This document shows positions 43,903 through 64,000 of a DNA stretch of 64,000 nt, in pieces (within the stretch, counting starts at the first letter, position 1; each line of letters begins with the position of its first letter). Made by a program: the position numbers and the translations under genes. The notes below the pieces were generated by a model that was given only the letters and a program-made list of their open reading frames with translations, did not search any database and was not told where the DNA came from. Origin of the DNA: Roseobacter sp. SK209-2-6 (GTDB lineage: Bacteria; Pseudomonadota; Alphaproteobacteria; Rhodobacterales; Rhodobacteraceae); assembly GCF_000169455.1 (NCBI RefSeq), contig NZ_AAYC01000005.1:186001-250000 (forward strand), given 5' to 3'.

Positions 43903-44367
43903 ATGTCCTCAAACCTGCAACACACACTTACTGGCAGAAAAATGCTGTCCCGCCTACTGGCGGCGCTGGCCTGCCTCATGGTAGTTTTGCAGCTTGCTCT
44001 GCCCAGTCTCGGGCAGGCTAGTGATCAGGGAACATGGGTGGAGATTTGCAGCGACCTTGGTCCTGTTGAGGTTGAAATTAGCAGCGGGGAAACCCGCACC
44101 CCTTCTGACGATTGCCCGGATTGTGACATTTGCCTGCTTTGTGCAGCTGAAAACGGCCAGGCCCGGCCTCTGACCCTTTCACAGACCTACGGCCCTGTTC
44201 CGCAGCACAGTGCACATTCCCTCAAGCAGGGGATTGTTCTCTTGAACCCGGCGCAATTCTGGCATGACGGCCGCGGCCCTCCCCGAATTCAAAAAACTCC
44301 TATGGAGCGCGCATCTGATGCCTCCATGGCAACCACCTTACAAGAAGGAGGGGCGCCATGGATCTGA
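43903..44367 (+). CDS. small Cys-rich exported protein, DUF2946-like
   Basis: 154 residues. A signal or anchor segment (LLAALACLMVVLQLALPSLGQAS) is followed by a cysteine cluster CPDCDICLLC at about residue 76. The form recalls DUF2946 proteins, but I am not certain. It is the first gene behind the FNR-like box and overlaps the nosR start by 10 bases, so it belongs to the nos transcript. The Cys cluster could bind copper for NosZ maturation; this is inference. Confidence 0.6.
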   Translation: MSSNLQHTLTGRKMLSRLLAALACLMVVLQLALPSLGQASDQGTWVEICSDLGPVEVEISSGETRTPSDDCPDCDICLLCAAENGQARPLTLSQTYGPVPQHSAHSLKQGIVLLNPAQFWHDGRGPPRIQKTPMERASDASMATTLQEGGAPWI

Positions 44368-46550: not shown

Positions 46551-46561
46551 AGGAGGACATC

Positions 46562-48475: not shown

Positions 48476-48476
48476 G

Positions 48477-49841
48477 ATGCGCTGGCTCCACCCCCAATCC
48501 GATCCGGACACGACTGGGCGGCGCCCAGTCCGGGCGGGTGCGAAAGCGCCCGCCTTGGGGGCGGGGCGGGCGCTGCCCAGCCTGCTGCTGGGCCTGACAC
48601 TAGGCCTGTTTCAGATGGTCCCCGCCTCCTGGGCTGCCGAATGGCAGGTCCCCAATGAGGCGGGCGCCATTGCACATGTTCTCGCTCAGGCGGCGGACGG
48701 GGATACCCTCCGTCTGGCGCCTGGTATTTACAATGAACGCATTACACTTGACCGGCCCATCACATTGGATGGTCAGGGCCATGCGACGCTGCAGGGCGAT
48801 GGCCAGGGCAGCGTGGTCACAGTCACAGGTCCCGGCATTACCGTCCAGGGGCTGACCGTGAAGGGCTCCGGCTCTGATCACGGCACGATTGATAGCGGTA
48901 TTCAGCTGACAAAAACAGCCCGCGCGCCAGTGATCCGCGACAACACCGTCCTGGGCAATCTCTACGGCATCGACATCCATGGCGCCCGTGACGCATTGGT
49001 GACCGGCAATACCATCGAAGGCCGCCAGGACCGTCTGATGAACATGCGCGGCAATGGGGTCTATGTCTGGAACGCCCCCGGCGCCACCGTTGAAGGCAAT
49101 GACATCCGCTGGGGCCGCGACGGGATCTTTGTGAACTCCTCCAAGCGCAACACCTTCCGCGGCAACCTCTTCCGCGACCTGCGCTTTGCGGTCCACTACA
49201 TGTATGCCGACAACTCCGAGGTCTCGGATAATGTCTCAATCGGCAACCACCTGGGCTATGCGGTGATGTTCTCCACCCGGGTCAAGGTGATGAACAATGT
49301 CTCCCTCAATGACCGAGATCATGGCGTGATGCTGAACTACACCAATAAGGGTGTTATCAGCGGCAACTATGTAAAAAGCGCCAAGGACAAATGCACATTC
49401 CTCTACAATTCCCACAAGAACGATTTCTCCGGAAACTGGTTCCAGGGCTGCGGCATTGGCATCCATTTCACCGCCGGAAGCGAGGGTAACCGGATGGTAG
49501 GTAATGCCTTTGTCGGCAACCGGCACCAGGTGAAATACGTCTCCACCCAGTGGGTGGAATGGTCCGAAGAAGGGCGCGGCAACTACTGGTCTGACTTTGC
49601 AGGCTTTGATGTCGACGGCAATGGCATTGCGGATGCGCCCTACCGGCCCAATGACAGCATGGACCATGTGCTCTGGACCCAGCCTGCCGCCAAGCTCCTG
49701 ATGGGGTCGCCTGCCGTGCAGCTGGTACGCTGGTCGCAGTCCGCCTTCCCCGCGCTGCTGCCCGGCGGTGTTATTGACAGCAATCCCCTGATGCGCCCGG
49801 AACTACCGGAAGCCGCAAACAGGGTAGAACAGGATGGATAA
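48477..49841 (+). CDS. nosD: NosD, periplasmic copper-cluster maturation protein
   Basis: 454 residues from the ATG one base after nosZ. The body is a right-handed beta-helix of repeated strands (ITLDRPITLDGQG, IQLTKTARAPVIRDNTVLGNLYGIDIHG and so on), as in NosD. The signal peptide core (LPSLLLGLTLGLFQMVPASWAA) starts only after about 35 residues, because a GC-rich hairpin repeat (48514-48580) is read through at the 5' end. NosD works with NosFY to build the CuZ site. Confidence 0.93.
   Translation: MRWLHPQSDPDTTGRRPVRAGAKAPALGAGRALPSLLLGLTLGLFQMVPASWAAEWQVPNEAGAIAHVLAQAADGDTLRLAPGIYNERITLDRPITLDGQGHATLQGDGQGSVVTVTGPGITVQGLTVKGSGSDHGTIDSGIQLTKTARAPVIRDNTVLGNLYGIDIHGARDALVTGNTIEGRQDRLMNMRGNGVYVWNAPGATVEGNDIRWGRDGIFVNSSKRNTFRGNLFRDLRFAVHYMYADNSEVSDNVSIGNHLGYAVMFSTRVKVMNNVSLNDRDHGVMLNYTNKGVISGNYVKSAKDKCTFLYNSHKNDFSGNWFQGCGIGIHFTAGSEGNRMVGNAFVGNRHQVKYVSTQWVEWSEEGRGNYWSDFAGFDVDGNGIADAPYRPNDSMDHVLWTQPAAKLLMGSPAVQLVRWSQSAFPALLPGGVIDSNPLMRPELPEAANRVEQDG
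48514..48580. repeat. GC-rich hairpin repeat, copy B, inside nosD
   Basis: CTGGGCGGCGCCC at the left end pairs with GGGCGCTGCCCAG at the right end with one G-T pair. Inside, GGCGGGTGC-GAAA-GCGCCCGCC forms a second hairpin with a GNRA-like loop. It resembles copy A (23071) and inverted copy C (33081). Unlike those it lies inside a coding frame, in the N-terminal leader of nosD. Confidence 0.7.
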
Positions 49842-50742
49842 AATGCGCGATGAGCCAATCCTGAAGATTTCAAGCCTCGATAAGTTCCGGGGCAAAACTC
49901 AGGTACTGCATGGCATTGACCTAGAGCTTTATGCCGGCGAGCGGCTGGCGTTGCTGGGCCACAATGGGGCCGGCAAATCCACGCTGATCAAATCCGTCCT
50001 GGGCCTTATTAATGCTGAAGGCGGCACTATCTCAATCTGCGGGGCTCGGCCCGGCACAGGAGCCGCCCGTGTGGCCACAGCCTTTCTGCCAGAGGCCGTG
50101 AGTTTCCATCCGGCGTTGACTGGATTTGAACAGCTTAAGACTTTTGCGCGTCTTTCCGGCGAGAAACCCGATATCGCCGCCCTGCTGCAGCGGGTAGGCT
50201 TGGGTGAGGCCATGCACCGCCGCATCGGCGCCTATTCCAAGGGCATGCGCCAGCGCCTAGGCCTGGCGCAGGTTCTGCTGGGACGGCCCAAACTGGCGCT
50301 GCTGGATGAACCCACCAGCGGCCTGGACCCGATCTCACGCCAAGACCTCTATGCTATCATTGATGAACTGGCCGCCCAGGGCACCGCAGTGCTGATCGCC
50401 AGCCATGCCCTGACGGAGGTCGAGGCCCGCACTGACCGCATCGCCATCATGCGCAAGGGGAGCAAAGTAGCCGATGACACGCTGGCGGGCCTCTCGGCCC
50501 AGGCGGGCCTGCCCGTGAAACTGCGCCTGCGCGCCAGCGGGGATCAGGCAGATCGTATCGCGCTAGAAACCGGCGGGCGCCGCATCAACGGCGCTTCGGT
50601 CGAGATCCTCTGCACCCCGCAGGACAAGATGGCAGAGCTGCGCCGCATCGCCGCCTTGGGGGATGCCGTTGTGGATATCGACATGGTGCCACCACGGTTG
50701 GATGACCTCTATCGCCACTACTCCAACGAGGAGCTGAACTGA
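49834..50742 (+). CDS. nosF: NosF, ABC transporter ATP-binding protein
   Basis: 302 residues. Walker A GHNGAGKST, signature YSKGMRQRLGLAQ, Walker B LALLDEPTSGLDP. The ATG at 49834 overlaps the nosD stop; a second ATG is at 49843. NosF powers the NosY/NosD complex that supplies sulfur for the CuZ cluster of NosZ. Its stop overlaps the nosY start (TGATG). Confidence 0.95.
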   Translation: MDKMRDEPILKISSLDKFRGKTQVLHGIDLELYAGERLALLGHNGAGKSTLIKSVLGLINAEGGTISICGARPGTGAARVATAFLPEAVSFHPALTGFEQLKTFARLSGEKPDIAALLQRVGLGEAMHRRIGAYSKGMRQRLGLAQVLLGRPKLALLDEPTSGLDPISRQDLYAIIDELAAQGTAVLIASHALTEVEARTDRIAIMRKGSKVADDTLAGLSAQAGLPVKLRLRASGDQADRIALETGGRRINGASVEILCTPQDKMAELRRIAALGDAVVDIDMVPPRLDDLYRHYSNEELN

Positions 50743-51560
50743 TGCGTTTCCTCGCCATCACCCGCGCAGAACTGACCATCCTCAGACGTAATCTCTGGAT
50801 CTTTATGGCCACATTGATCATGCTGGCCTTTGCCTTGGCGCTGTCCTTTGCGGGCTCTGCCCCAACCGGGACCCTGGGCGTCGATATGCTGACCATTTCA
50901 GTTGCTTCGATGACCACGCTCTCAGTCTATCTGGCGCCGCTTCTGGCGCTTATGATGGGCTTTGATGCCATCGCAGGCGACAGGGACCGCGGCAGTCTCG
51001 CGCTGCTGCTCACCTATCCGGCGGGGCGCGGAGAGCTGCTGGCGGGCAAATTCCTGGCCCATCTCGCAGCGCTGACGATTGCCATGGTCATTGGCTTTGG
51101 CGCGGCCGGAGCAATTGCGGCTTGGTTTGGCGGGGCTGGAGCCGAGAGCCTCCTGGCGCTCGCACGGCTGGTACTGACCTCAATCCTGCTGGGTGCAGTT
51201 TTTCTAGTTCTAGGCTATGCGATTTCGGCCCTGGCCAATAGCACCACTGCTGCCGCCGGACTCTCTGCAGGGCTCTGGCTGGTCTTTGTGGTGCTTTTTG
51301 ATCTGGCGCTGCTTGGTGCCGTGGTCATGGATGGCGACGGTGTCTTTACGCAAAGCATCTTTCCCTGGGTCATGGTGGCCAATCCAGCGGATGCCTTCCG
51401 TCTGTGGAATATCGCCGCCTCCGAGGGCGTCGCACTCTCCAGCGGCATGGCCGGTGCCGCCGCCGCGCTGCCCACCTGGGCCGCCCCACTCTCCTTGCTG
51501 GCCTGGCCGATCCTCGGCTTTCTTTTGGCCCGCGCCGCATTTCAAAAGGTGGAACCATGA
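50742..51560 (+). CDS. nosY: NosY, ABC transporter permease
   Basis: 272 residues, six hydrophobic helices, with the NosY-type segment MGFDAIAGDRDRGSLALLLTYPAGRGELLAGKF after helix two. It is the membrane partner of NosF. Translation is coupled on both sides: TGATG with nosF and ATGA with nosL. Confidence 0.95.
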   Translation: MRFLAITRAELTILRRNLWIFMATLIMLAFALALSFAGSAPTGTLGVDMLTISVASMTTLSVYLAPLLALMMGFDAIAGDRDRGSLALLLTYPAGRGELLAGKFLAHLAALTIAMVIGFGAAGAIAAWFGGAGAESLLALARLVLTSILLGAVFLVLGYAISALANSTTAAAGLSAGLWLVFVVLFDLALLGAVVMDGDGVFTQSIFPWVMVANPADAFRLWNIAASEGVALSSGMAGAAAALPTWAAPLSLLAWPILGFLLARAAFQKVEP

Positions 51561-52090
51561 GACTTTCGCCCCTCGCCCCCCTGCTGGCTGCAGCCACCCT
51601 GGCGCTTACCGCCTGTCAGGAAGAAGAGGCCAAGGCGCCCCCAGCCCCGGTTGAACTGACGCAGACGGCGCTGAGCTATTTTTGCCAAATGAACATCGCA
51701 GAACATGGCGGACCCAAGGGCCAGATCCATCTGGAGGGCTATCCCGCACCGCTGTTCTTTGCCCAGGTGCGCGACATGGTGGCCTATCTCAAAGGGCCCG
51801 AACGGGATGCGGATATCACTGCGGTCTATGTCAGCGATATGGGCGTGGCAGCCAGTTGGGCCGAACCCGGCGCCGACAACTGGATCAATGTGAGTGACGC
51901 CGTGTTTGTCATCGACAGCAATGTGGCAGGCGGCATGGGTGCGCCAGAGCTGGTGCCCTTTGCAACAGCAGAAGCCGCCCAGGCCTTTGTTGACCGTTAT
52001 GGCGGCTACACCGGAACACTGGAAGAGATCCCTGCCGAGGTCGCTCTTGGCCCGATTGACCTCGACCTGAAATTGGAGACCCCCTCATGA
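51557..52090 (+). CDS. nosL: NosL, copper-binding lipoprotein
   Basis: 177 residues from the ATG at 51557. A lipobox (LALTACQ) sets the lipid-anchored Cys. The Cu(I)-binding region is in LSYFCQMNIAEHGGPKGQIHL, and the C-terminal half carries FATAEAAQAFVDRYGG as in NosL. It delivers copper to apo-NosZ. Overlaps nosY and nosX by ATGA on each side. Confidence 0.95.
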   Translation: MRLSPLAPLLAAATLALTACQEEEAKAPPAPVELTQTALSYFCQMNIAEHGGPKGQIHLEGYPAPLFFAQVRDMVAYLKGPERDADITAVYVSDMGVAASWAEPGADNWINVSDAVFVIDSNVAGGMGAPELVPFATAEAAQAFVDRYGGYTGTLEEIPAEVALGPIDLDLKLETPS

Positions 52091-52983
52091 GCCCCTCACA
52101 AAGCCGTCGGCGCTTTCTGTGCCTCTCCGCTTCGCTGATGGTTGCTGGTCCCGCACTTGCAGCCAACTCACCGGTTGCCCATTGGCAAGGCCACGCCTTG
52201 GGGGCCACGGCCCAGATGACCCTCGCCGGGCTTGACCCGCAAGAGGCAGCGCCGGTTTTTGCCCGCGTCGAAAAGGAGCTCTCCCGCCTCGAAGCCATCT
52301 TCAGTATCTACCGGCCCGATAGCGAAGTGGCGCGTCTGAACGCAACCGGTCGGATAGCCCTCCCCTCACCCGAGTTACTGGACATTCTTTCACTCTCTGC
52401 CAGCCTACATCGGGCCAGCAAGGGCGCCTTTGATCCAACTGTTCAGCCACTCTGGCAAGCACGGGCGCTGGGAAAAAGCGAAGCTGGTCTGAACAGAGGT
52501 TTTCAGCATCTGCGCTATGATCCCTCGGCCGTATCTTTTGCACGACCAGACATGGGCTTGACCCTGAACGGGATTGCACAGGGCTATATCACCGACCGAA
52601 TTGCAGCACTTCTGCGCAGCGAAAGTCTGACAGATATCCTGGTCGACATGGGGGAGATCAGTGCCTCGGGTCTCAGCCCGGACGGCAATGGCTGGCGTGC
52701 GGGGATCACCTCCCCGGCCGGAGACATCCTGCAGCGTGTGACGCTTCAGGATCGGGCGCTTGCGACCTCCGCCGGGAGCGGCACCCAGTTGAGCGATGGC
52801 AGCAGCCATATCCTGGACCCAAGGTCCGGTGAAGCTGCCCATCTTAAGCGCCTTGTTTCGGTCAGCGCCCCCTCTGCGGCCTTGGCAGACGGTTTTTCTA
52901 CAGCACTTTGCCTTCTCAGTCAGGAGGACGCATCAGAGCTGATACGCCACTTCCCCGGCACGCGACTAGAGCATTTTGCGTAA
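52087..52983 (+). CDS. nosX: NosX, FAD:protein FMN transferase (ApbE family)
   Basis: 298 residues. A Tat-type signal (SRRRFLCLSASLMVAGPALA) and the ApbE motifs GAFDPTVQPLW, LNGIAQGYITDRI and ILVDMGEISASG are present. ApbE enzymes attach FMN covalently to a Thr; the SGATVT site in NosR of the same operon is the obvious target. Last gene of the nos operon, followed by a terminator. Confidence 0.95.
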   Translation: MSPSQSRRRFLCLSASLMVAGPALAANSPVAHWQGHALGATAQMTLAGLDPQEAAPVFARVEKELSRLEAIFSIYRPDSEVARLNATGRIALPSPELLDILSLSASLHRASKGAFDPTVQPLWQARALGKSEAGLNRGFQHLRYDPSAVSFARPDMGLTLNGIAQGYITDRIAALLRSESLTDILVDMGEISASGLSPDGNGWRAGITSPAGDILQRVTLQDRALATSAGSGTQLSDGSSHILDPRSGEAAHLKRLVSVSAPSAALADGFSTALCLLSQEDASELIRHFPGTRLEHFA

Positions 52984-53087: not shown

Positions 53088-54095
53088 TCAGAGCAGCGCG
53101 CGGATTTTCTCCAGTGTCGCGGAGTTGACCGCAACGCCTTCGCTTGCTGCACGTACCCGTGCTTTGGCCCGGCCATCACCGGGCAAGCGGCCGCCATCCT
53201 GCTCACGGATCGAAGCTACCAGGGCCGTCATACGATCTGCAAAGGCACCGCCGGAGGTCGCGGCGGGGTCAATCGCAATGAAGAACTGGCCGGTCTTGGG
53301 CGGGCCGCCAACAGGGCCGGAGAAGGGGCTGGCAACAGTCCCCAGGGTGGCACCGGTCATAGCGGCGGCCATCATCTCAACCATCAGGGCAATGCCGACA
53401 CCTTTGTAGCCGCCCGAAGGCACCATGGAGCCCTTGAGGCCCGCATCGGGATCCGTTGTTGGCTTGCCCTCCGCATCCAGCACCCAGCCTTCCGGCACCG
53501 GCTTTCCCTCGCGGGAGTGTTTCATCACTTCGCTCTTGGCAATGGTGCTGGCGGATTGGTCGATCAGCACCCGCGCTTCACCATCCTCACCGGGGGCCGC
53601 GATGGAAAACGGGTTGGTGCCAACAACTGGCTTTGCGCCGCCAGAGGGCGCAATGGAGGCCGGCGCATTGGTGAAGCCGATCCCCATAAGACCCGCCTGT
53701 GCCAGACGCTGGGTATGCACGCCCAGGACGCCGCAATTGTAGGAGTTGTTGACCGCAAGTGCGGCAATGCCCTGTTCGCGGGCCAGCGGGATCAGCGCCT
53801 CAAAGCCCTTGTCGATGGCGGCGTGGGCAAAGCCAGTAGCGGCATCCACGGCAACGACCGAAGGGCGCGGAGTGCTGAGCTGTGGCACTGCCTTGCCATC
53901 GACTTTGCCGCAGTCCACATGGCCTGCATAGATCGGCACATAGGCCAGCCCGTGCGAGGCAACGCCATCGGCCTCTGTCATCGCGGTTGCGACAGCCAGC
54001 GGGCGGGCGTTTTCCTCGGAGGTGCCCGCGGCAACCAGCGCCTTGAAGGCCAGATCTTCGATTTCGGAGAGGGTCAGCGTTTCAGTCGCGCTCAT
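53088..54095 (-). CDS. Ldh family oxidoreductase (ketimine / 2-keto acid reductase type)
   Basis: 335 residues of the malate/L-lactate dehydrogenase-2 family. Catalytic His in EADGVASHGLAY, the NAD(P)-binding block GAKPVVGTNPFSIAAPG, and SGGYKGVGIALMVEMM are visible. Characterised relatives reduce delta1-pyrroline- or piperideine-2-carboxylate, ureidoglycolate or malate. It ends the 60761-53088 operon. A cyclic imino-acid step is a reasonable guess in a cluster with an aldehyde dehydrogenase and sarcosine oxidase. Confidence 0.88.
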   Translation of the reverse strand: MSATETLTLSEIEDLAFKALVAAGTSEENARPLAVATAMTEADGVASHGLAYVPIYAGHVDCGKVDGKAVPQLSTPRPSVVAVDAATGFAHAAIDKGFEALIPLAREQGIAALAVNNSYNCGVLGVHTQRLAQAGLMGIGFTNAPASIAPSGGAKPVVGTNPFSIAAPGEDGEARVLIDQSASTIAKSEVMKHSREGKPVPEGWVLDAEGKPTTDPDAGLKGSMVPSGGYKGVGIALMVEMMAAAMTGATLGTVASPFSGPVGGPPKTGQFFIAIDPAATSGGAFADRMTALVASIREQDGGRLPGDGRAKARVRAASEGVAVNSATLEKIRALL

Positions 54096-54147
54096 CTCAA
54101 GGGTCCTTTTCTATTGTACTTGGCCGGGGGACCTGCCCCCGGAAAAA

Positions 54148-54795
54148 TCAATCGTTGTCGCTAAGGCCGGCACCGGCGCCTAAGATGCGCGAGGCTTCGG
54201 TTGCGGGCGCATAGGTGCGGTGGGCAAATTCACCTAGTTTTTCCCAGGCCTGGGGATCAACATCAGCGCGCATCACCGGCTCGCTCTGGCCGCTCATCTC
54301 GGCGGGGGCAGCACAGGTCAGCGTGCTGGCATGTGAACACAGGATTGCCTCCCGCTCCCCCTGCACACAGAGCCGCTGACCATCTGTGGTCAACCGAGCA
54401 TCTTCCCAGGTGACGGAAACCGGCACCCCAAGGCGCAGGGCTGCGCCAGCAGCGAAGGGCACCACCAGCAGCGGCAAAGAGACGTTTTCCATCTCGATCA
54501 CCTGCCCGGCCTCCATGCGCACTGCACAGTCACTCATGGCGGCACCAGCAATCAGAGGGCTCATCCGGCCAGCAGGTGCTGCCCAAGTGCCGCTCAGTAC
54601 CGCCGGAGAGAAATCCAGCGCCGGCAGGCGATCATTGAGGGTCAGGAGATCAGCTAGCATCTCGGCGCCAGGGAAGCTGAAGGCCGCCAGCCAGCGGGTG
54701 CCTTTGGCGGCTTCTTCCGCCAGGCCCCAGGAGAGGCCTGCACCGCGGGCGGCGCGTTTGCTCATGGCTTCGATTTCGTTCAGAGAATGGTTCAT
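54148..54795 (-). CDS. DUF3726 domain-containing protein
   Basis: 215 residues. It begins NHSLNEIEAMSKRAARGAGLSWGLAEEAAKGTRWLA, which matches my recollection of the DUF3726 family start. No signal peptide, membrane helix or known catalytic motif is seen. It lies 3 bases after the 561-residue unknown gene and 52 bases before the Ldh gene. The tight pairing with the other unknown protein suggests that they act together. Function unknown. Confidence 0.75.
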   Translation of the reverse strand: MNHSLNEIEAMSKRAARGAGLSWGLAEEAAKGTRWLAAFSFPGAEMLADLLTLNDRLPALDFSPAVLSGTWAAPAGRMSPLIAGAAMSDCAVRMEAGQVIEMENVSLPLLVVPFAAGAALRLGVPVSVTWEDARLTTDGQRLCVQGEREAILCSHASTLTCAAPAEMSGQSEPVMRADVDPQAWEKLGEFAHRTYAPATEASRILGAGAGLSDND

Positions 54796-54798
54796 CGC

Positions 54799-56484
54799 TC
54801 AGCCCTCCTGCGCATCGGGATAGACCCAGAAATCACCGTCGCGCTCGGCCAGTTCTTCTGGGAAAGGCGCGTTGCCGTACATGCAGATCCGCACCCAGCG
54901 ATCCGATCGCGGGTCGAAATGCATTGCCCCGAAAAAGGCCAGCTTGCAGCGCAGCATATCGATGGGTAGCACATTTTCAGAGATGGTATTGTCGCGGATC
55001 TCGGCATAGGGCGCACGGTTGGCGATCTGGGCGCGGCGCACCGAATGGCGGTGTTCGGGATGGCGCAAGAGGAACTCCGCCACCGGGGTGTCTTCTGGCC
55101 AATGGGCCAGCGCCTGATAGAGCGCGGTTGCATCGCGGCCCGGCGCCAGGGGCTGTTCGTATTCCTCGATCGGCTCCTCAAAGCGTTCGCCCAGGCGCGG
55201 TTCCAGCTTCTCTTCAGAAACATACCAGGCACGCGCTTTGTTGGCGGGTTGGGTCCAGTCGGTCTGCAGCGCCCAGCCGTAGACCTCCTGCAAAACCTCA
55301 CGCAATCGCGCCACCGTCATAGCACCCGCGATGCGGAAGGTGGCGGTATTGTCTGCCGCCATCTCATCCTCCAAGTCATCAATCAGCGCCCCATAGGGTT
55401 CCAGCATCAGCGAGGCCAGCCATTCCTGGCCTTCGACGCTCAGTGCTTCCGAGGCCCAAAGGTAGAGGCTGTTCCAGGGCTGAACCTCGGGCAGGCCTTC
55501 GTCTTCCAGCTTGGCCGAAAGCGCCGCTATATCGGCACGCAGCGCGGCGAGTTTTTCCACCTGCACCGGATGCTCAGAATGCCAATGGGCGACGGCCTCA
55601 CTATTGCGGGCAAAGAGGCTGTGGAACAGCTCTGCTTCCTCAGCGCTGGCCACTTCGACGCTGCGCACCCGTTGCAGGGCGGTTTCACGCGCGGCGACCC
55701 AGTTGCTGAACAGCACCGGGTGGTTCAAAAGAAAGGGCGCCATGCCCAGGCCGGTGGAATTGCCGATGCCCATGCTGCGAGCCAGATCGGGATCCAGACG
55801 GGCCGCCGTTGCACCTTGGTTGGCGGCGCGGGCATCCGCCATGTGCTGCACCAGATCACGCACAAAGGCGCGGGTCAGAAAGACCGAGAGCATCTCCACC
55901 TGGAACGGTACCCGGAATTCGGGCCGGTCCGCGATCATCTCACGGTCTGCAGCCCCCAGCTTGCCGGAGCCGTATACTGCCGTGGTGCGCATCAGGTAGC
56001 CGACCGCCTCGATCTGGGCGGCATCGGGCTGCTCACCGGCGGCCAGGGAACTGACCACATGCTCCCAAAGGCGCACGGACCGGTTGGCACGTGAGACCGA
56101 AAGCTCGGAGCCAGTCACGCGGCCTGCTTCCTGCACCGGAATATTGTGAGAAAGGCGTTCGATGTCATCGGTGCTAGGGATACCGTCAAACAGGGTGAAG
56201 GTCGCATCCCAGGCCTCTGCGATGACCCGATCCGAGCGTTTCTCGGCCGGCAGGTCATGAGCATAAGCGATCAGCGAATAGGCGCGTTCCGGCCCGTGCG
56301 CGGTATAGACCGCATGGCCCACGCCGCTCGCATCAATTTCAAAAGCAGTCTGTTCAAAGCGCCAGCCTTCCCGCGCCATGCGGCGGGTCAGGATACGCAT
56401 AAAGGACAGGCGCGATTGGTGAAAAGAGCCGAGACGCGCGAGGCGCATCACCAAATTGGGGTCGCGGCAGGAGACTTCGGTCAT
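54799..56484 (-). CDS. conserved hypothetical protein, 561 residues
   Basis: 561 residues from the ATG at 56484; the frame further upstream is not supported. No signal peptide and no long hydrophobic segment, so cytosolic. Distinct blocks are TTAVYGSGKLGAADREM (residues about 165-181), MGIGNSTGLGMAPFLLNHPVLFSNWV in the middle and CMYGNAPFPEELAERDGDFWVYPD at the end. I do not recognise a family. It precedes the DUF3726 gene by 3 bases within a BCCT/dipeptidase/aldehyde dehydrogenase operon. Confidence 0.8.
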   Translation of the reverse strand: MTEVSCRDPNLVMRLARLGSFHQSRLSFMRILTRRMAREGWRFEQTAFEIDASGVGHAVYTAHGPERAYSLIAYAHDLPAEKRSDRVIAEAWDATFTLFDGIPSTDDIERLSHNIPVQEAGRVTGSELSVSRANRSVRLWEHVVSSLAAGEQPDAAQIEAVGYLMRTTAVYGSGKLGAADREMIADRPEFRVPFQVEMLSVFLTRAFVRDLVQHMADARAANQGATAARLDPDLARSMGIGNSTGLGMAPFLLNHPVLFSNWVAARETALQRVRSVEVASAEEAELFHSLFARNSEAVAHWHSEHPVQVEKLAALRADIAALSAKLEDEGLPEVQPWNSLYLWASEALSVEGQEWLASLMLEPYGALIDDLEDEMAADNTATFRIAGAMTVARLREVLQEVYGWALQTDWTQPANKARAWYVSEEKLEPRLGERFEEPIEEYEQPLAPGRDATALYQALAHWPEDTPVAEFLLRHPEHRHSVRRAQIANRAPYAEIRDNTISENVLPIDMLRCKLAFFGAMHFDPRSDRWVRICMYGNAPFPEELAERDGDFWVYPDAQEG

Positions 56485-56590
56485 TCTGGTTAGCCTTTGC
56501 AATCTGGGTATTCGCGCGTTTCCTGAGCCCGGCAGATCCAGGCTGCGGCTGGGCACCAGATAGCGCCCAGCCGGAGTTTTTAAAGCGGGC

Positions 56591-58135
56591 TTAGCCCTCT
56601 TTGCCCTTGGCCAGGGTAATGCGCAGCGCATCCCAGAGCGAGGGCAAGAGCAAGAGCGAGACTGGCACCGCGGTGACCACGATAAAGCTCTGCAGCTTGG
56701 AAACACCGCCGGAACCAACCGAGATCAGGATCACCGCCATGACACCCATGGCAACGCCCCAGAACACACGCACGGCTGCGGGTGGGTTGTCACCATCGCT
56801 CATGGTGGCAGAAATCACATAGCTCATCGAGTCACCTGTAGTGGCCACGAAGATGGTGGTCAGGATCAGGAACAGGATAGAGATCACAAAGCCCATCGGC
56901 AGGTTATTGGTGATCGCCAAGAGGGCCGCAGGCAGGTTGAAGCCTTCGAAAGCGGCCGAGATGGTACCCGGGTTCTCCAGCTCCATCGCAATGCCGGTTC
57001 CACCGATGATGGTGAACCAGAAGTTGGTCACGATCGGGGCGATGATCGACAGCATGATGATGATCGAACGGATCGAGCGGCCGCGTGAGACGCGGGCGAT
57101 GAACATAGCCATCAGCGGGCCATAACCCATGAACCAGCCCCAGAAGAACACGGTCCACCAGCCGAGCCAGCCTGGCTCACCAAAGACGCCTGCATCTCCA
57201 CGGAACAAGGCCATCTGGAAGAAGTTGCCCAGATAAGTGCTGAAGCCGGAGAAGAAAGAGCCGAAGATGAACCCGGTCGGACCTGCCAGCAGGACAAAGA
57301 GCAAGAGAACCGCTGCCAGGATCACATTGATCTTGGAGAGGATCTGGATGCCGCGCGACAACCCGGTCATGGCCGAGATGGTATAGATGGCCACAAGACC
57401 CGCAATCACCATGAACTGGGTGGCAAAGACATCGGGAATGCCGAAGAGGTCCGACAGGCCATAGCTTACCTGCAGACCGAGGAAACCGATAGGACCAACG
57501 GTGCCGGCCACAACCGCGATGATCGAGGAGGCATCGGCAATCAGACCAATCGGGCCATTGATCGCCTTGTCGCCGAAGACGGGGTACAGCAGTGTGCGCG
57601 GCGCCAGCGGCAGGCCTTTTTCATAGTGATAGTGCATCAGCATCACGGTGGAGAGCGAGCCCAGAATGGCCCAGGCCAGGAAGCCCCAGTGCATAAAGCT
57701 CTGGGCGATAGCCGGGTTTACCGCAGCCTCAGTCGCGCCCTCGGCTCCGTAAAGCGGCGGCGAATAGAGAAAATGGGCAATCGGCTCACCCGCCGCCCAG
57801 AACACGCCACCGCCTGCGAGCAGGGTACACATGATCATCGAGCCCCACTGGAAGGTGGTGAACTCCGGTTTCGCCAGGGCGCCCATGATGGCACTGCCGC
57901 CGGGCAGAACGCAGAGCAACAAACCAATGAGGAATGTCGCCAGCAGGAGCACCTGCCAATATAGGCCGAAATAGGTCGCCGAGAAATTGAAGCCCCAATC
58001 AACCATGGCCGACAGGGTTTCGAGGTCGACCAGTGCCATCAGGCAGAATAGGGCAATAAAGCCCCCTGAGATCAGAAAGAGCGGCTTGTTAACACCGCCT
58101 TTCTGGCTCGTGTTGTCTTGTGTTACGTCAGTCAT
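56591..58135 (-). CDS. BCCT family transporter with altered aromatic box
   Basis: 514 residues from the ATG at 58135, about twelve helices. BCCT blocks GGGVFWAAGEPIAHFLYSPP (residues 108-127) and FIARVSRGRSIRSI (345-358) place it in the betaine/carnitine/choline family. In helix 8 the usual WAWWxxWxP motif reads FWGWFMGYGP (331-340), so two substrate-binding Trp positions are replaced by Phe and Tyr. The ligand is therefore probably not glycine betaine. Lies between the peptidase-family and 561-residue protein genes. Confidence 0.9.
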   Translation of the reverse strand: MTDVTQDNTSQKGGVNKPLFLISGGFIALFCLMALVDLETLSAMVDWGFNFSATYFGLYWQVLLLATFLIGLLLCVLPGGSAIMGALAKPEFTTFQWGSMIMCTLLAGGGVFWAAGEPIAHFLYSPPLYGAEGATEAAVNPAIAQSFMHWGFLAWAILGSLSTVMLMHYHYEKGLPLAPRTLLYPVFGDKAINGPIGLIADASSIIAVVAGTVGPIGFLGLQVSYGLSDLFGIPDVFATQFMVIAGLVAIYTISAMTGLSRGIQILSKINVILAAVLLLFVLLAGPTGFIFGSFFSGFSTYLGNFFQMALFRGDAGVFGEPGWLGWWTVFFWGWFMGYGPLMAMFIARVSRGRSIRSIIIMLSIIAPIVTNFWFTIIGGTGIAMELENPGTISAAFEGFNLPAALLAITNNLPMGFVISILFLILTTIFVATTGDSMSYVISATMSDGDNPPAAVRVFWGVAMGVMAVILISVGSGGVSKLQSFIVVTAVPVSLLLLPSLWDALRITLAKGKEG

Positions 58136-58197
58136 TTTCCCCTCCCATGGGAACGGGACCGGCATGGCCCCGCTTGCAATTCGGCTCTCGTCGTCCC

Positions 58198-59178
58198 TTA
58201 CGCAGCGCCGAAATTGTCCTTGAAAAAACGGTGCCAATTGCGACCCATGATCCCGGCAACCTCATCACCGTTCATGCCGGTGGCACTGAGACCGTCTTCG
58301 ATGTTGCCGAAATCGCGGTTGTCCTTGAACCAGCCGGGCATGTCCGGGAAACCGGGGGCGGAAGCAGAGCCTTCGCCGTAGTCGATTTCCTTGGTCCAGC
58401 GCCCCACGCGCATCCATTCGACGATGCTGTCGGGTTGATCCTGGCAAAGATCAGTACCAATGCCGAGGTGCTCCACCCCGTACTTGTCAGCGGTGCGCGC
58501 AATCATCTCGCAGAAGCTCTCAAGAGTGCAGGCGCTCTTGTCCTTCAGGTGATGCGGATAGACCGAAAAGCCGAGCATGCCGCCATTGCTGGTCACAGCC
58601 CGGATGACATCCTCTTTCTTGTTGCGCAGCGCCGGCGACCACTCATATGGGTTGGCATGGGTGATGGCGATCGGACGGGTGGAGAATTCAGCCGCCTCGA
58701 TGGTAGACCGGTCGGCAGAGTGGCTCATATCCACCACCAGGCCCACGCGGTTCATCTCTTTGATCACCTGTTTGCCCATGCGCGTGAGGCCCGGATCCTC
58801 CGCCTCGTAACAGCCGGTCGCCAGCAAGGACTGGTTGTTATAGGTGAGCTGCATGAAGCGCGCACCCAGGGTGTGCAGGATCTCGATCAGACCGATGTCG
58901 TCTTCCATTGGCGAGGGGTTCTGGAACCCGAAAAACACTGCGGTGCGGCCGGTTTCGCGCGCTTTTTCAACGTCAGAGGCCCATTGCCCCTTCATGATCA
59001 GATCCGGGTATTGCTCAAACCAGCGGTTCCACTGTTCGAAGTTCAGGACCGTCTCACGAAAGTTCTCATGATAGGCGATGGTGACATGGATCGCGTCCAC
59101 GTTGCCCTCACGCAACTGACGGAAGATCTTTTCCGACCAATTGGCATATTGCAGGCAGTCGATACGGTATCCGGTCAT
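58198..59178 (-). CDS. membrane dipeptidase family (peptidase M19) protein
   Basis: 326 residues from the ATG at 59178. Renal-dipeptidase features: VDAIHVTIAYHENF near the start, RFMQLTYNNQSLLATGCYE, LVVDMSHSADRSTIEAAEFSTRPIAITHANP with two metal-binding His, and GIGTDLCQD. A homologue of this type lies beside glycine betaine/dimethylglycine genes in Pseudomonas, so it may act on an N-methylated or cyclic compound rather than peptides. Two GC-rich hairpins precede it. Confidence 0.88.
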   Translation of the reverse strand: MTGYRIDCLQYANWSEKIFRQLREGNVDAIHVTIAYHENFRETVLNFEQWNRWFEQYPDLIMKGQWASDVEKARETGRTAVFFGFQNPSPMEDDIGLIEILHTLGARFMQLTYNNQSLLATGCYEAEDPGLTRMGKQVIKEMNRVGLVVDMSHSADRSTIEAAEFSTRPIAITHANPYEWSPALRNKKEDVIRAVTSNGGMLGFSVYPHHLKDKSACTLESFCEMIARTADKYGVEHLGIGTDLCQDQPDSIVEWMRVGRWTKEIDYGEGSASAPGFPDMPGWFKDNRDFGNIEDGLSATGMNGDEVAGIMGRNWHRFFKDNFGAA

Positions 59179-59210
59179 TCTTGCACCTCGATTTCGTGTA
59201 ACCAGCGCGT

Positions 59211-59257
59211 CCTCCCCGTTCGGGAGGGCTTGTGCTCCCGCCCAGAAAGGGCGGGAG
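59211..59257. other. two hairpins between aldehyde dehydrogenase and dipeptidase genes
   Basis: CTCCCGCCC-AGAAA-GGGCGGGAG at 59235-59257 is a perfect 9-base stem; next to it CCTCCCC-GTT-CGGGAGG at about 59212-59228 forms a second stem with one mismatch. On the transcribed (minus) strand no T tract follows, so partial attenuation or mRNA processing is likelier than full termination. Confidence 0.55.
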
Positions 59258-59309
59258 TTTTGGGGCATGTTTTGCGCCGATCTTTAGGTTACGACGCAGC
59301 TCTTTTGGC

Positions 59310-60761
59310 TCAGACCGGTTTGCCGGCGCTGATGTAGGCAGTCTTGACAGTGGTGTAGAATTCCGCTGCCGCCTTGCCCTGCTCGCGCGGGCCGTAAGAG
59401 CTATCGCCGCGCCCGCCAAAGGGCACGTGGTAGTCGGTGCCAGCAGTCGGCAGGTTGACGGTCACGACACCGGTGCGGGCATTGCGACGGAAGTGGGTGG
59501 CGCGGGCCAGCGACTGGGTCACGATGCCGGAAGTCAGGCCGAAGTTGGTGTCATTCACCACCGAGAGCGCCTCATCATAGCTGCCGACCTTGATCACAGA
59601 GGTCAGCGGCGCGAACATTTCCTCGCGGTTGATGCGCATATCGTTGGAGGTGCTCAGGAACACGCCGGGCGACATGTAGAAGCCTTCGGTTGGCATCTCC
59701 AAACGCTGGCCGCCGCAGGCGAGCTCCGCGCCTTCGCTTTGGCCCAGATCCACATAAGCCAGGTTCTCGTCCAGCTGCTGCTGGCTGACCACCGGGCCCA
59801 TCTGCACGCCTGCTTCCAGCGCGTGGCCGACTTTCATTGCCTGGGTGCCTGCAACCAGCTTTTCGACAAAGGTGTCGTGGATGGCCTCATGTACCACCAG
59901 GCGCGAAGATGCGGTGCATTTCTGGCCGGTGCCGCCAAAGGCGCCGCCCAGGGCCAAGGTGACAGCCAGATCCAGGTCGGCGTCATCCATCACTGCCAGT
60001 GCATTCTTGGAGCCCATCTCCATCTGAACCTTGGTCAGGTTCTGGATCGCTGCAGCGGCGATGCCCTTGCCTACGGGAACCGAGCCGGTGAAGGAAATGG
60101 CATTGACCTTGGGGCTTTCCACCAAACGCTGGCCGATAGAACGGCCGGAGCCCATGACCAAGGAGAACAGGCCTTTGGGGATGTCCTGCCGGTTGATGAT
60201 CTCTGCCAGAGCAACGGCAGAGGCCGGGGTGATATTCGCAGGTTTCCACACTACCGCATTGCCATAGCAAAGTGCCGGAGCGATTTTCCAGGATGCGGTA
60301 GCGGTCGGGAAATTCCAGGGCGAGATGATCGCAACGGTGCCGACTGCCTCTCGGCGCACGTCGATCTCGATGTCCGGGCGCACGGAGTCGGCGTTCTCAC
60401 CAAGCTGGCGCAGGCATTCTGCGGCATAATAAGTGAAGAATTGGCCGGCACGGAAGACCTCGCCCTTGCCCTCGGCCAGCGGCTTTCCTTCTTCGCGAGA
60501 GAGCAGCGTACCAAGTTCCTCGGCCCGTGCCATCAGCTCATTACCGATGGCGTTCAGAACCGCCTGCTTGCGTTCCAGCCCGTAAGCGGCCCATTCGGCT
60601 TGTGCGACTTGCGCTTGGTCCAGGGTCGCTTCCAGCTGGTCAGCGCTGGCCTGAGCAAAGATGCCAACAAGGTCCGAGAGGTCGGAAGGATTGCGATTTT
60701 CAATCTCGCTTTCACCAGCCAGCCATTCGCCGGCGATCAGGTTCTTTTGAAGTTCGCTCAT
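59310..60761 (-). CDS. NAD(P)-dependent aldehyde dehydrogenase (alpha-ketoglutarate semialdehyde type)
   Basis: 483 residues from the ATG at 60761. Catalytic Glu248 (VQMEMGSKN) and Cys282 (GTGQKCTASSR), NAD-binding GSVPVGKG. The PWNFPTATASWKIAPAL block and the C-terminal PFGGRGDSSYGPREQG resemble 2,5-dioxovalerate/alpha-ketoglutarate semialdehyde dehydrogenases. First gene of the minus-strand operon, divergent from a LysR gene. It probably oxidises an aldehyde made by the unknown enzymes downstream. Confidence 0.9.
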   Translation of the reverse strand: MSELQKNLIAGEWLAGESEIENRNPSDLSDLVGIFAQASADQLEATLDQAQVAQAEWAAYGLERKQAVLNAIGNELMARAEELGTLLSREEGKPLAEGKGEVFRAGQFFTYYAAECLRQLGENADSVRPDIEIDVRREAVGTVAIISPWNFPTATASWKIAPALCYGNAVVWKPANITPASAVALAEIINRQDIPKGLFSLVMGSGRSIGQRLVESPKVNAISFTGSVPVGKGIAAAAIQNLTKVQMEMGSKNALAVMDDADLDLAVTLALGGAFGGTGQKCTASSRLVVHEAIHDTFVEKLVAGTQAMKVGHALEAGVQMGPVVSQQQLDENLAYVDLGQSEGAELACGGQRLEMPTEGFYMSPGVFLSTSNDMRINREEMFAPLTSVIKVGSYDEALSVVNDTNFGLTSGIVTQSLARATHFRRNARTGVVTVNLPTAGTDYHVPFGGRGDSSYGPREQGKAAAEFYTTVKTAYISAGKPV

Positions 60762-60868: not shown

Positions 60869-61780
60869 GTGTCAATAAAGATCGAAATGCTCCGCTGTTT
60901 TGCCATGGTCGCCCGCCATGGCAATCTAAGCGATGCGGGGGAGCAATTGGGGCGCACCCCCTCGGCGGTCTCGATGATGCTGAAACAGCTGGAAGGCCAT
61001 CTTGGCGAGCCGCTGTTTGAAACCGATCGCAAGAGCAAGCTCACCGCTTTGGGCGCCTATGTTCTGGAGCAAGCAGAACGCGAGCTGCGGCAGTTCGACG
61101 GCACAGTGCAAAGCATCGAAAACTACGCCAAGGCGCGACACGGACGCGTGCGGATCGCCTCTGTCCCCTCGGTGGCAGCCACTGTTCTGCCGCAGGCAAT
61201 ATTGAGCTACACCAAAGACTTCCCCAATGTTCAGATCGAGCTGCGGGATATGGATTCCCCAGGCGTTCTGCGAGAGCTCACGCGCGAGACTGTTGATATC
61301 GGCCTTGCAACCGCCGGTCAGTTTTCCGGCATTCTGCACCGGCAGGAACTGGTCTCGGATGGCTTTGGGGTGATTTGTCCTATTGGCCACCCTTTTGCCA
61401 GTTCACAGCAACCATTGGCCTGGGACGCGCTGGAAGATCAGCGGCTGATAGCCAATGCGCTCTCTGAGCAGATCGCGGCACCGCAATCCCAGGCGCTGCA
61501 TCGCGATGCCCTCCTGAATGTTCACAACATGACCTCGATTCTGGCCATGGTCGGCGCCGGATTGGGTATTACACTGCTGCCGGAAATGACCGCCAGACTG
61601 GCCGAATCATCCGGGCTGGCCTTCGTTCCACTGGCAGACCCTGCGGCCCGCAGGCGGATAGATCTCCTGCGCAAGGCAGAGGCACCCGCCTCACCGGCAG
61701 CGCGCGAACTGGAAAAGCGGATCATTTCGACCGTTGCGGAGCTCGCATTTGAAACACCGACGCCAAGAGAGGAAGCCTGA
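60869..61780 (+). CDS. LysR family transcriptional regulator
   Basis: 303 residues from the GTG at 60869, preceded by AGGA. The N-terminal winged helix (IEMLRCFAMVARHGNLSDAGEQLGRTPSAVSMMLKQLEGHLGEPLFETD) and a standard effector-binding domain are present. It is divergent from the aldehyde dehydrogenase operon across about 107 bases, its presumed target, and is followed directly by the GlxA-type gene. Confidence 0.92.
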   Translation: MSIKIEMLRCFAMVARHGNLSDAGEQLGRTPSAVSMMLKQLEGHLGEPLFETDRKSKLTALGAYVLEQAERELRQFDGTVQSIENYAKARHGRVRIASVPSVAATVLPQAILSYTKDFPNVQIELRDMDSPGVLRELTRETVDIGLATAGQFSGILHRQELVSDGFGVICPIGHPFASSQQPLAWDALEDQRLIANALSEQIAAPQSQALHRDALLNVHNMTSILAMVGAGLGITLLPEMTARLAESSGLAFVPLADPAARRRIDLLRKAEAPASPAARELEKRIISTVAELAFETPTPREEA

Positions 61781-62779
61781 ATGACCAAGCCGATGACCCT
61801 GGGGTTCCTGATTTTCCCCGGCTTCCCCATGTCCTGCCTGACCTCAGCGATTGAGCCACTGCGCGCAGCCAATGAAATTGCTGGTAAAGCCGCATTCGAC
61901 TGGAAAATCCTCGCCGAAGAAGAGGGACCTATTCCCTCCTCCGCCGGTGTCGCCTTTGCACCGGATATGCTGCTCTCAGAGGCCGAGGGGCTAAGTCATA
62001 TCTTCCTGGCCTCACGACCCGACAGCCGTTTTGCCCATCCAGTAAAAGCCAATGCAGCGCTGCAGCGCCATCTGCGCGGCGGTGGCAAGCTGGGCGCCTT
62101 TAGCGCAGGGGTCTTCCCCTTGGCCCGCAGCGGCATGATGCAGGAGCACGCAATGGCGGTGCACTGGTGCTACGAGGCTGCTTTTGCCGCTGAATTCCCC
62201 GAGGTTGAGATCCTCCAAACCGTACTGCAAGACGAAGGTCCCTGCATCACCGTCGCCGGCGCAACGGCGGTGTTCGACCTTATGCTGAACATGATTGATG
62301 AGGTACTGGGGCCAGAGGTCACCACCGAAACCGCCTGCTGGTTCCAGCACCCCTTTGTGCGCGGCTCCAGCGTGCCGCAGCGACTGCCGGTTCTGGGCAA
62401 TGCTGCTGGCCAGGATATGCTGCCGCCCAAGGTGGCGCAGGCCATCGAACTCTTTGCCGAACACATCGAAGACCCGATCCAGATCAGTGCGGTTGCAGAG
62501 GCCATCAATATGTCGGCCCGCAGCCTGGAGCGCAGCTTCAAACGCGCAACCGGCCAGAGCCCGCTGAAATACTACCGTCAAATGCGGATGAACGAGGCGC
62601 GCCAGCTGGTGCTTTATACAAGGGATCCAATCACCACCATCGCCTATATGGTGGGCTATTCCTCCCCCTCAACCTTCCAGCGTCACTACCGGGAGTTCTA
62701 CGGCATCAGCCCGCTGAAAGACCGGGAGGCCAAGAACTCTTTACGGGTGACGGATGGCAGCTGCCTGCCATCCGTCTAG
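61781..62779 (+). CDS. GlxA family transcriptional regulator, GbdR-like
   Basis: 332 residues, starting immediately after the LysR stop. The DJ-1/PfpI domain begins LGFLIFPGFPMSCLTSAIEPLRAANEIAG, strongly recalling GbdR of Pseudomonas, and the AraC domain ends TTIAYMVGYSSPSTFQRHYREFYGISP. GbdR activates betaine, dimethylglycine and sarcosine genes. With a sarcosine oxidase operon next door and a BCCT carrier upstream, a role in methylated-amine catabolism is likely. Confidence 0.9.
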   Translation: MTKPMTLGFLIFPGFPMSCLTSAIEPLRAANEIAGKAAFDWKILAEEEGPIPSSAGVAFAPDMLLSEAEGLSHIFLASRPDSRFAHPVKANAALQRHLRGGGKLGAFSAGVFPLARSGMMQEHAMAVHWCYEAAFAAEFPEVEILQTVLQDEGPCITVAGATAVFDLMLNMIDEVLGPEVTTETACWFQHPFVRGSSVPQRLPVLGNAAGQDMLPPKVAQAIELFAEHIEDPIQISAVAEAINMSARSLERSFKRATGQSPLKYYRQMRMNEARQLVLYTRDPITTIAYMVGYSSPSTFQRHYREFYGISPLKDREAKNSLRVTDGSCLPSV

Positions 62780-62986: not shown

Positions 62987-63553
62987 TCAGAGGACCGAAT
63001 GCGCGGCCTCAACAAGTCCGTGATGCAGGGAGCCAGCAGAAGAGCGCGGCGCATAGATCGCCACCTTCTGCCCCGGCTCCAGACACCAGATAAAGCAGGC
63101 CATATGCTCAAGGCGGCTGCGGCTCACGTCGCCGACCTGCATCGCCAGCAAGTCCACATTGCAAAGACGTTCCAGAACATCGCCCAACCGCGCGCCCTCT
63201 AGATCAAAGCGGCACCAGCCATCGCTTTGCTCGGTTACAGAGCCGGCGGCGCCAACGGCTTCTTTCACTTCACTGTCCAGAGTTTCATGGGCCGCGTAAC
63301 CCGCCGAGATCATCCATTGGTCTGCTCCCATCCAGAAGCAGGAGTATGGCTCTCCCAGAACGCCTTTGCCGGGGGCGGGCAGCTCCGCGCCTAGCAGGGC
63401 CTGGGCACCCGCAGCACATTGCGCCTCTTCACCCCGACGGGCGGCAAGGCTGGCGAAGGCGCAATCGGCGCGTTCCTGAATGGTCAGGCCGTCAAAGCTA
63501 TCGACCTGCGCCGAGGAAGCCGCAAGTGCGGTGATTGATTTCAAACTATGCAC
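62987..63553 (-). CDS. soxG: sarcosine oxidase subunit gamma
   Basis: 188 residues from the GTG at 63553 (AAGGAG ribosome site), overlapping the alpha-subunit stop. Matches the SoxG pattern: YSCFWMGADQWMISAG in the middle, WCRFDLEGARLGDVLERLCNVDL and the C-terminal SRLEHMACFIWCLEPGQKVAIYAPRSSAGSLHHGL. SoxG is the small structural subunit of the heterotetrameric enzyme that oxidises sarcosine to glycine and passes a one-carbon unit to tetrahydrofolate. Confidence 0.93.
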   Translation of the reverse strand: MHSLKSITALAASSAQVDSFDGLTIQERADCAFASLAARRGEEAQCAAGAQALLGAELPAPGKGVLGEPYSCFWMGADQWMISAGYAAHETLDSEVKEAVGAAGSVTEQSDGWCRFDLEGARLGDVLERLCNVDLLAMQVGDVSRSRLEHMACFIWCLEPGQKVAIYAPRSSAGSLHHGLVEAAHSVL

Positions 63554-64000
63554 GGAGACGCTCTCCTTCGGGATCTACAAAATGGGCGCTGACAACTTCG
63601 ACCTGGATTTCCTGACCTGCGAGCGGGTTCACCGCGCGGATGATCTCCCCTTTGCGAGCATCGCCATTCTTCAGAAAGCCAATGCCAATCGAGCTTTCGA
63701 GCACCGGCGAATAGGCGGCTGAGGTGACATAGCCTTGGTCAACCTTGGCATTGACCGCACCGCTGGCATTCATCAGATGGGCACCGGCAGAAATGGTCTC
63801 ATCCGATTTAACCGGCCGGAAGCCGACCAGCTTCAGAGCATCCTCTTCATTCATCCCCTCACGTTCGCTGAGGGTATTGCCAATGCAGTCCTTCTTTTTG
63901 CTGACCATCCGGCCCATGCCGAGGTTCAGCGCCGAAGTGGTACCGTTGAGCTCATTGCCCGCCGCGTGACCTTTTTCGATCCGCATGACCCCCAGCGCTT
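63546..64000 (-). CDS. soxA: sarcosine oxidase subunit alpha, C-terminal part
   Basis: About 150 codons reach the window edge, so the gene is cut by the window. The sequence is the GcvT-like C-terminal domain that binds folate in SoxA: GMGRMVSKKKDCIGNTLSEREG, LVGFRPVKSDETISAGAHLMN, GYVTSAAYSPVLESSIGIGFLKNG and the ending VEVVSAHFVDPEGERLRA. It overlaps soxG by 8 bases. The soxB and soxD genes should lie further right, upstream in transcription. Confidence 0.92.
   Translation of the reverse strand, partial: ALGVMRIEKGHAAGNELNGTTSALNLGMGRMVSKKKDCIGNTLSEREGMNEEDALKLVGFRPVKSDETISAGAHLMNASGAVNAKVDQGYVTSAAYSPVLESSIGIGFLKNGDARKGEIIRAVNPLAGQEIQVEVVSAHFVDPEGERLRA

Follow-up and report, generated by a model that had tools for sequence, protein, structure and literature searches.

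A candidate homarine catabolic operon in Roseobacter sp. SK209-2-6 and its putative ring-opening protein pair

Which compound is broken down by the six genes that lie together on the minus strand at 53088-60761 of a 64,000-nucleotide stretch of the Roseobacter sp. SK209-2-6 genome (contig NZ_AAYC01000005.1, positions 186,001 to 250,000; the whole stretch is referred to as the window), and what do the two uncharacterised proteins among them contribute? The genes, all six of which were confirmed (Pfam/NCBIfam matches, Table 1), encode an aldehyde dehydrogenase (ALDH), an M19-family amidohydrolase (M19), a BCCT carrier, a 561-residue protein (U561), a DUF3726 protein and an Ldh_2-type reductase (Ldh), and a set of sarcosine oxidase-like (sox-like) genes starts nearby. 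A first-pass annotation had described an operon of unknown pathway for the catabolism of an N-methylated or cyclic betaine-like compound, with the uncharacterised pair performing the first ring or methyl step. It appears from the present analysis that the block is probably a homarine (N-methylpicolinate) catabolic operon with a follow-on enzyme, in which U561 and DUF3726 would act as the ring opener. Betaine catabolism fits the carriers (BCCT or glycine-betaine ABC systems), the DpkA-like Ldh, the adjacent set of N-methylglutamate dehydrogenase (Mgd) type and the constancy of the U561-DUF3726 pair; of the two first steps suggested for that pair the ring step fits, by elimination only, and homarine, one of several compounds listed at first pass, is the best candidate substrate. 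The label of an unknown pathway has to be dropped, as the pathway is very probably one published in 2026, and the part still of interest once it is counted as known is the ring-opening pair.

U561 was found in 133 of the 295 genomes of the family, and in the 24 genomes searched for both proteins (G012-G035) U561 and DUF3726 were either both present (8) or both absent (16). Directly after U561, 124 of 129 loci, all selected for holding U561, have a protein that carries the tail motif of DUF3726 described below; these counts are not independent, as L049-L088 and L089-L168 have some contigs in common. Four of the other five loci have a DUF3726 BLAST match and the fifth has an annotated open reading frame (ORF) of 241 residues at that place. 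The commonest junction is a 4-base overlap with the U561 stop codon (65/124); in the window a gap of 3 bases separates the U561 stop from the start of DUF3726 (TGA GCG ATG), as stated at first pass. Neighbours were counted in the best 80 of 571 confirmed U561 loci, taken from named genomes and extending at most 10 kb either way, with presence set at ≥45% identity (≥28% for DUF3726): U561 was present in 80, DUF3726 in 79, M19 in 78, ALDH in 54 and Ldh in 32. The constant core is therefore the U561-DUF3726 pair, which M19 usually joins; ALDH and Ldh are frequent in the vicinity of the window's branch but seldom found further away. The first-pass annotation had held that its inference would be refuted if the pair occurred mainly with unrelated neighbours; this was not found in near relatives, whereas a set of 20 remote loci (L049-L068) keeps only M19 and DUF3726.

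An operon named homABCDER was reportedly described in 2026 by Ferrer-Gonzalez et al. in Nat Microbiol 11:1531, with N-methylglutamate and glutamate as products and an occurrence in Rhodobacterales, SAR11 and SAR116. In the window five structural genes (ALDH, M19, U561, DUF3726 and Ldh) stand together with a divergent LysR gene, the same number as reported for homABCDER, with which a gene-by-gene correspondence is presumed; from genome to genome there is variation in the carrier inside the operon and in the Mgd-type set linked to it. Relatives of U561 were found in Rhodobacterales and a SAR116 genome, which fits the occurrence given for homABCDER, and others in Granulosicoccaceae and Acidimicrobiales. 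A literature search found no paper under DUF3726 or homABCDER. Mgd is reported to take part in homarine catabolism (PMC13390433), and fast uptake of homarine by R. pomeroyi from diatom metabolites has been described (PMC12817926).

What was computed comprises the gene content, the pairing of U561 with DUF3726, the frequent presence of M19, the clade of the sox-like genes and their synteny, the affinity of Ldh to DpkA and the protein folds; the substrate, the order of steps, the N-formyl intermediate and the ring-opening role of the pair are inferences. Homarine would be taken up as a betaine by the BCCT carrier, after which U561, as the proposed catalytic subunit, and DUF3726, as its partner, would break the C5-C6 bond of the pyridinium ring by oxidation to give an N-formyl-N-methyl aldehyde (C7H9NO4). 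ALDH would oxidise the ring-opened semialdehyde to the acid, M19 would act as an N-deformylase, taking off formate and leaving N-methyl-2-iminoglutarate, the DpkA-like Ldh would reduce the latter to N-methylglutamate, and the Mgd-type set would demethylate this to glutamate and methylene-tetrahydrofolate. Homarine (C7H7NO2) would have to lose C6 to become N-methylglutamate. The ring opening is given to U561 and DUF3726 because every other gene has a step. A plasmid filed under Roseateles XES5 (flagged UNVERIFIED_ORG) brings the five genes together with purU, folD, a betaine ABC carrier, regulators and a sox set, a combination that fits the release of one-carbon units.

The last step of this route depends on what the sox-like genes encode. 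The genome holds four full-length SoxA-like proteins, and as all four pass the NCBIfam soxA model, this model cannot separate Mgd from sarcosine oxidase; nor does the NCBIfam soxB model tell the two apart. When the window protein was placed in a 34-row tree together with three paralogues from the source genome and 30 loci out of many more matches, it fell in a clade of 19 rows with support of 97/99, the bootstrap not being settled, and the nearest row (L198) lies approximately 4.5 kb from an mgsC-like gene. Here mgsC denotes the gene beside gmaS in the source genome, gmaS being recognised by a TIGR03105 match and mgsC named from a reading of the sequence. Among 35 U561-bearing genomes, in which the Mgd clade, mgsC and Ldh were compared, the SoxA clade was present in 18 and an mgsC-like gene in 13, and in 6 of these 13 the two lie ≤25 kb apart. 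Five of the six regions were read (all but that of G235); an AraC gene stands beside the sox genes in four, accompanied by dmm-like genes in three. In L228, L229, L231 and L232 an AraC homologue (47-52%) adjoins these sox genes and mgsC-gmaS, whereas L230 has none there. In R. pomeroyi, tmaR is reported to adjoin mgdABCD and to lie near dmm (PMC13390433).

On account of its clade and its synteny with mgsC-gmaS, the adjacent set is best read as an N-methylglutamate dehydrogenase. The first-pass statement that a sarcosine oxidase follows the operon was thus correct as to the presence of a set, but its name is better replaced. The likeness to MgdABCD with TmaR consists of a soxBDAG-like set with a neighbouring AraC gene, in the same clade as the sets linked to mgsC-gmaS; the window set differs in adjoining a betaine operon, and its clade is found without an mgsC-like match in 7 of the 35 genomes, in two of which (G110 and G152) it lies ≤7 kb from U561. 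If mgs is truly absent from those seven genomes, N-methylglutamate must come from elsewhere. That the genes encode instead a true sarcosine oxidase, unrelated to the operon, is improbable: it would agree with the passing of the soxA subfamily model by all four SoxA-like proteins, which does not discriminate, and with the rarity of linkage to the operon (5 of 80 loci), but it is at odds with the clade and synteny just described and with the three other SoxA copies that lie elsewhere in the genome, one of them near dnaG/rpoD and another near a creatinase-like gene (named from sequence reading). On another contig of the same genome (C19:137000-156500) gmaS occurs with dmm- and mgs-like genes, again named from sequence reading. 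No full-length SoxA-like gene is found on that contig, and the Mgd-type set of the window may thus serve both pathways.

The Ldh of the operon is a full member of the Ldh_2 family (DpkA, YiaK, AllD), with a PF02615 match above cut-off and the SHG motif, and its best solved relatives are of the DpkA type (1wtj, 2cwf and 2cwh, E 2.2e-56; next 1.5e-40), DpkA being an N-methyl-amino-acid dehydrogenase. Ldh (≥58%) and the SoxA clade occur together in 15 of the 35 genomes, Ldh only in 6, the clade only in 3 and neither in 11 (Fisher p 0.006, uncorrected for kinship), which is the expectation if Ldh makes what Mgd consumes.

The metal ligands of M19 dipeptidases are provided by an HxD motif, a Glu and two His. 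The closest solved relative of the operon protein is 2i5g, and His183 and His204 align with His residues of the solved dipeptidase 3id7. The Glu of 3id7, however, aligns with Gln116 (numbering from the start at 59268), a Gln in ≥95% of 76 rows, and no HxD was found at the N terminus; thus, although it shares the family and the two His with the renal-type dipeptidases, the protein is not an ordinary dipeptidase. The top NCBIfam models for ALDH are 2,5-dioxovalerate and alpha-ketoglutaric semialdehyde dehydrogenase, both under cut-off, and it also matches muconate-semialdehyde models, likewise under cut-off. The latter matches bear on a different chemistry, in which the ring is opened by water and not by O2 to give N-methyl-2-aminomuconate semialdehyde, which ALDH would oxidise towards six-carbon acids. 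Picolinate arises from 2-aminomuconate semialdehyde in the breakdown of tryptophan, and U561 has no invariant His or Cys, both in keeping with hydrolysis; yet all six backbone carbons would be retained, whereas the linked Mgd-type set and the DpkA-like Ldh point to the five-carbon N-methylglutamate, and the M19 hydrolase would be left without a task. We regard a hydrolytic opening as highly improbable.

With oxidative cleavage preferred, the question becomes what kind of oxygenase the pair could be. U561 belongs to no Pfam or NCBIfam family (best E 0.037 in a Pfam search over 44 members, those of an alignment in which L050, L051, L053, L054, L056 and L060 of the 20 remote loci were excluded), and sequence searches of the PDB gave nothing credible. 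Its AlphaFold2 (AF2) model is of high confidence (pLDDT 89.6, pTM 0.91), and a Foldseek search of it against the PDB returned 96 matches at E≤10, none of which reached E≤0.001. The predicted fold thus seems to be new relative to the PDB copy searched. Over 46 rows, down to approximately 30% identity, ten Arg are invariant (R25, R86, R122, R138, R166, R205, R430, R484, R512 and R532), as are W404, W420, Y421, S423 and E428. None of the residues invariant in these rows is a His or Cys, which makes it unlikely that a metal or heme is bound at a conserved His/Cys site.

For DUF3726, the AF2 model (pLDDT 94.1) was matched by Foldseek to Ldh_2 enzymes, with 8 matches at E≤0.001 (best E 3.1e-4, probability 0.99-1.00) and a TM-score on the query of 0.40-0.56. 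A profile comparison with the Ldh of the operon aligned the first 44 residues only, at a probability of 49%. No PF02615 match was obtained for DUF3726, two remote partners of its type matching that family under cut-off (E 0.005 and 0.025), and the SHG motif is absent, the string occurring in 1 of 45 aligned rows (the window and 44 of 76 candidate ORFs, those excluded being mainly ORFs with false N-terminal extensions). Because it lacks this motif it is not a normal Ldh. The model suggests a shortened Ldh_2-type fold, 120 residues shorter than the operon Ldh, the fold being all that is common to DUF3726 and a family whose PF02615 match and SHG motif it does not have. Its C-terminal tail (window 54148-54200) carries P-x-S/T-x-x-S-R followed by a GAGAGL-type motif, kept in 44 of 45 rows despite a variable middle; the last 15-20 residues are modelled with low confidence.

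Ring-opening oxygenases of the TgnA/TgnB type consist of a luciferase-like monooxygenase and a flavin reductase, and neither U561 nor DUF3726 matched a luciferase-like monooxygenase or flavin reductase Pfam family. A speculative and rather unlikely idea is that the pair represents a new type of oxygenase without protein-bound metal, in which DUF3726, as a cut-down version of an NAD(P)H-reductase fold, would help to deliver a hydride to C4 of homarine, handled like a nicotinamide, and U561 would let O2 cleave the C5=C6 enamine; 1,4-dihydrohomarine (C7H9NO2) plus O2 equals exactly the N-formyl aldehyde C7H9NO4. Were this true, remote relatives, for example on the megaplasmids of S. meliloti, would apply the same chemistry to other N-heterocycles.

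The assignment to homarine should be considered with caution, as a number of findings weigh against it or against single steps. An oxygenase would find neither a reductase nor a cofactor partner among the genes of the operon. Beyond the rare linkage noted above, in which SoxA at ≥45% was counted, 17 of the 35 U561-bearing genomes lack the SoxA clade and 14 lack an Ldh of ≥58%; the association of the two stands at p 0.06 in the 22 genomes without mgsC; and the 20 remote loci include 15 with M19, 2 with ALDH and 2 with Ldh, the latter two enzymes counted at ≥45%. The SoxA of the plasmid filed under Roseateles is hardly closer to the window type (52%) than to the dnaG-linked paralogue (50%). Among the 2-oxo acids that the available text of PMC6110843 lists for DpkA, 2-oxoglutarate does not appear. 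A replacement for Ldh was also sought: the 14 genomes hold at best paralogues of 38-45%, two of them having none at E≤1e-50, and none was named as a substitute. Five genes downstream of DUF3726 were tested in a Roseovarius-type locus (L092) and proved to be of capsule and membrane kinds.

A further point concerns growth, since R. pomeroyi was reported in 2021 to grow more poorly on homarine than on trigonelline (PMC8269262); according to a later correction, the homarine standard contained picolinic acid. This growth difference, together with the breadth that carriers of the BCCT/betaine type can have in general, would suit an operon that degrades another N-methylated cyclic betaine (trigonelline, pipecolate or proline betaine) and only resembles one for homarine. 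Such a substrate is, however, unlikely. The trigonelline route ends in methylamine and succinate semialdehyde and needs neither a DpkA-like Ldh nor Mgd, whereas the carbon of homarine would map onto N-methylglutamate by loss of C6. The known trigonelline route begins with the TgnA/TgnB oxygenase, and in 2021 homarine degradation was regarded as uncharacterised and TgnA/TgnB as unlikely to act on homarine (PMC8269262). The logic of homarine catabolism proposed for the window nevertheless resembles that of trigonelline degradation, with ring opening to an N-formyl aldehyde, an ALDH and an amide hydrolysis; it differs in that U561 and DUF3726 match no oxygenase family and that the proposed product is N-methylglutamate.

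Where a carrier was found next to the five-gene set, it was of the BCCT or the glycine-betaine ABC type. BCCT was present in 12 of the 80 loci at ≥45% and in 23 at ≥28%, a glycine-betaine ABC transporter takes its place in Aminobacter, Pararhizobium, Roseateles and Shinella, and many of the 80 loci have no carrier within reach. The LysR gene was present in 27 of the 80 loci at ≥45% and in 51 at ≥28%; of those at ≥38%, 28 run in the opposite direction to U561 and 23 in the same direction. In the window the LysR and GbdR-like regulators lead away from the operon on the plus strand, as had been noted at first pass, and Ruegeria TM1040 and Aliiroseovarius show the same succession of sox set, AraC, LysR and operon. 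The AraC/GbdR-like gene may be called TmaR-like by its position only.

A tree of 46 U561 proteins consists of one large group, which includes that of the window, and two remote groups. In the first remote group, U561 and a DUF3726-like protein occur with M19 and an IclR regulator. On the megaplasmid of S. meliloti Ak57 the genes that come after these four encode an ABC carrier, an aminotransferase, a succinate-semialdehyde dehydrogenase and RidA; in Aminobacter they encode an ABC carrier and RidA, and Variovorax has a different carrier protein. A remote U561 set was also seen on the megaplasmid of S. meliloti 1021, in sequence without annotation. In the second remote group, in Bosea, no M19 is annotated within 9 kb, and the neighbours of U561 are an aldehyde dehydrogenase, an aldo/keto reductase, an alpha/beta hydrolase and an 'amino acid synthesis family' protein. 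The Bosea plasmid locus (L196) and L066 form the most remote U561 branch, the Bosea partner being a 266-residue protein with the tail motif. It seems, from gene neighbourhoods, that the U561-DUF3726 pair has been built into several pathways. A different substrate was considered for the branch at approximately 47%, but as all five genes of the set are present in its Aminobacter and Pararhizobium members, no separate function is claimed for it.

Homarine is an abundant marine metabolite. If the operon does degrade it, proteins of unknown fold would open a pyridinium ring, and their relatives would extend well beyond the sea, including to rhizobial megaplasmids. A function would then be given to DUF3726 and to a family without a Pfam entry, some genes annotated as sarcosine oxidase would be suspected to encode N-methylglutamate dehydrogenase, and the ring-opening chemistry would become directly testable.

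Table 1. Positions and matches of the operon genes, the regulators and the adjoining sox-like genes (window coordinates unless a locus is named)
Feature	Position	Strand	Match or remark
Ldh_2 reductase (Ldh)	53088..54095	-	PF02615, E 3.2e-94
DUF3726 protein, 215 residues	54148..54795	-	PF12525, E 5.3e-27
U561, 561 residues	54799..56484	-	without Pfam or NCBIfam family
BCCT carrier	56591..58135	-	PF02028, E 3e-149
M19-family amidohydrolase	58198..59187, alternative start 59268	-	PF01244, E 2e-68
Aldehyde dehydrogenase (ALDH), 483 residues counted from ATG	59310..60761	-	PF00171, E 3.9e-148
LysR regulator, divergent from operon	60869..61780	+	PF00126/PF03466
AraC/GbdR-like regulator, tail to tail with sox-like genes	61781..62779	+	NF052371 GbdR, under cut-off
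MgdD-like (soxG-like) subunit	62987..63553	-	TIGR01375, 48.5 bits against a cut-off of 143.95
MgdC-like (soxA-like) subunit, truncated by window edge	63546..64000	-	entire gene at L018:4547-7504
soxB-like gene past window edge	L018:7811-9061		

The sox-like genes start at 62987 and continue beyond the end of the window. On its other side the operon adjoins a nitrous oxide reductase cluster (44358-52983; Fer4/FMN-binding protein, Nos propeller, NosD, ABC, NosL and ApbE), and NnrS and a Crp-like regulator were found beyond the sox and ABC genes (L018:14181-16293), so that the betaine block seems to be embedded in a denitrification region. The sox-like genes are followed by a five-gene ABC transporter with a binding protein (L018:9250-13799), of branched-chain amino acid type by sequence reading, the substrate of which could belong to the pathway.

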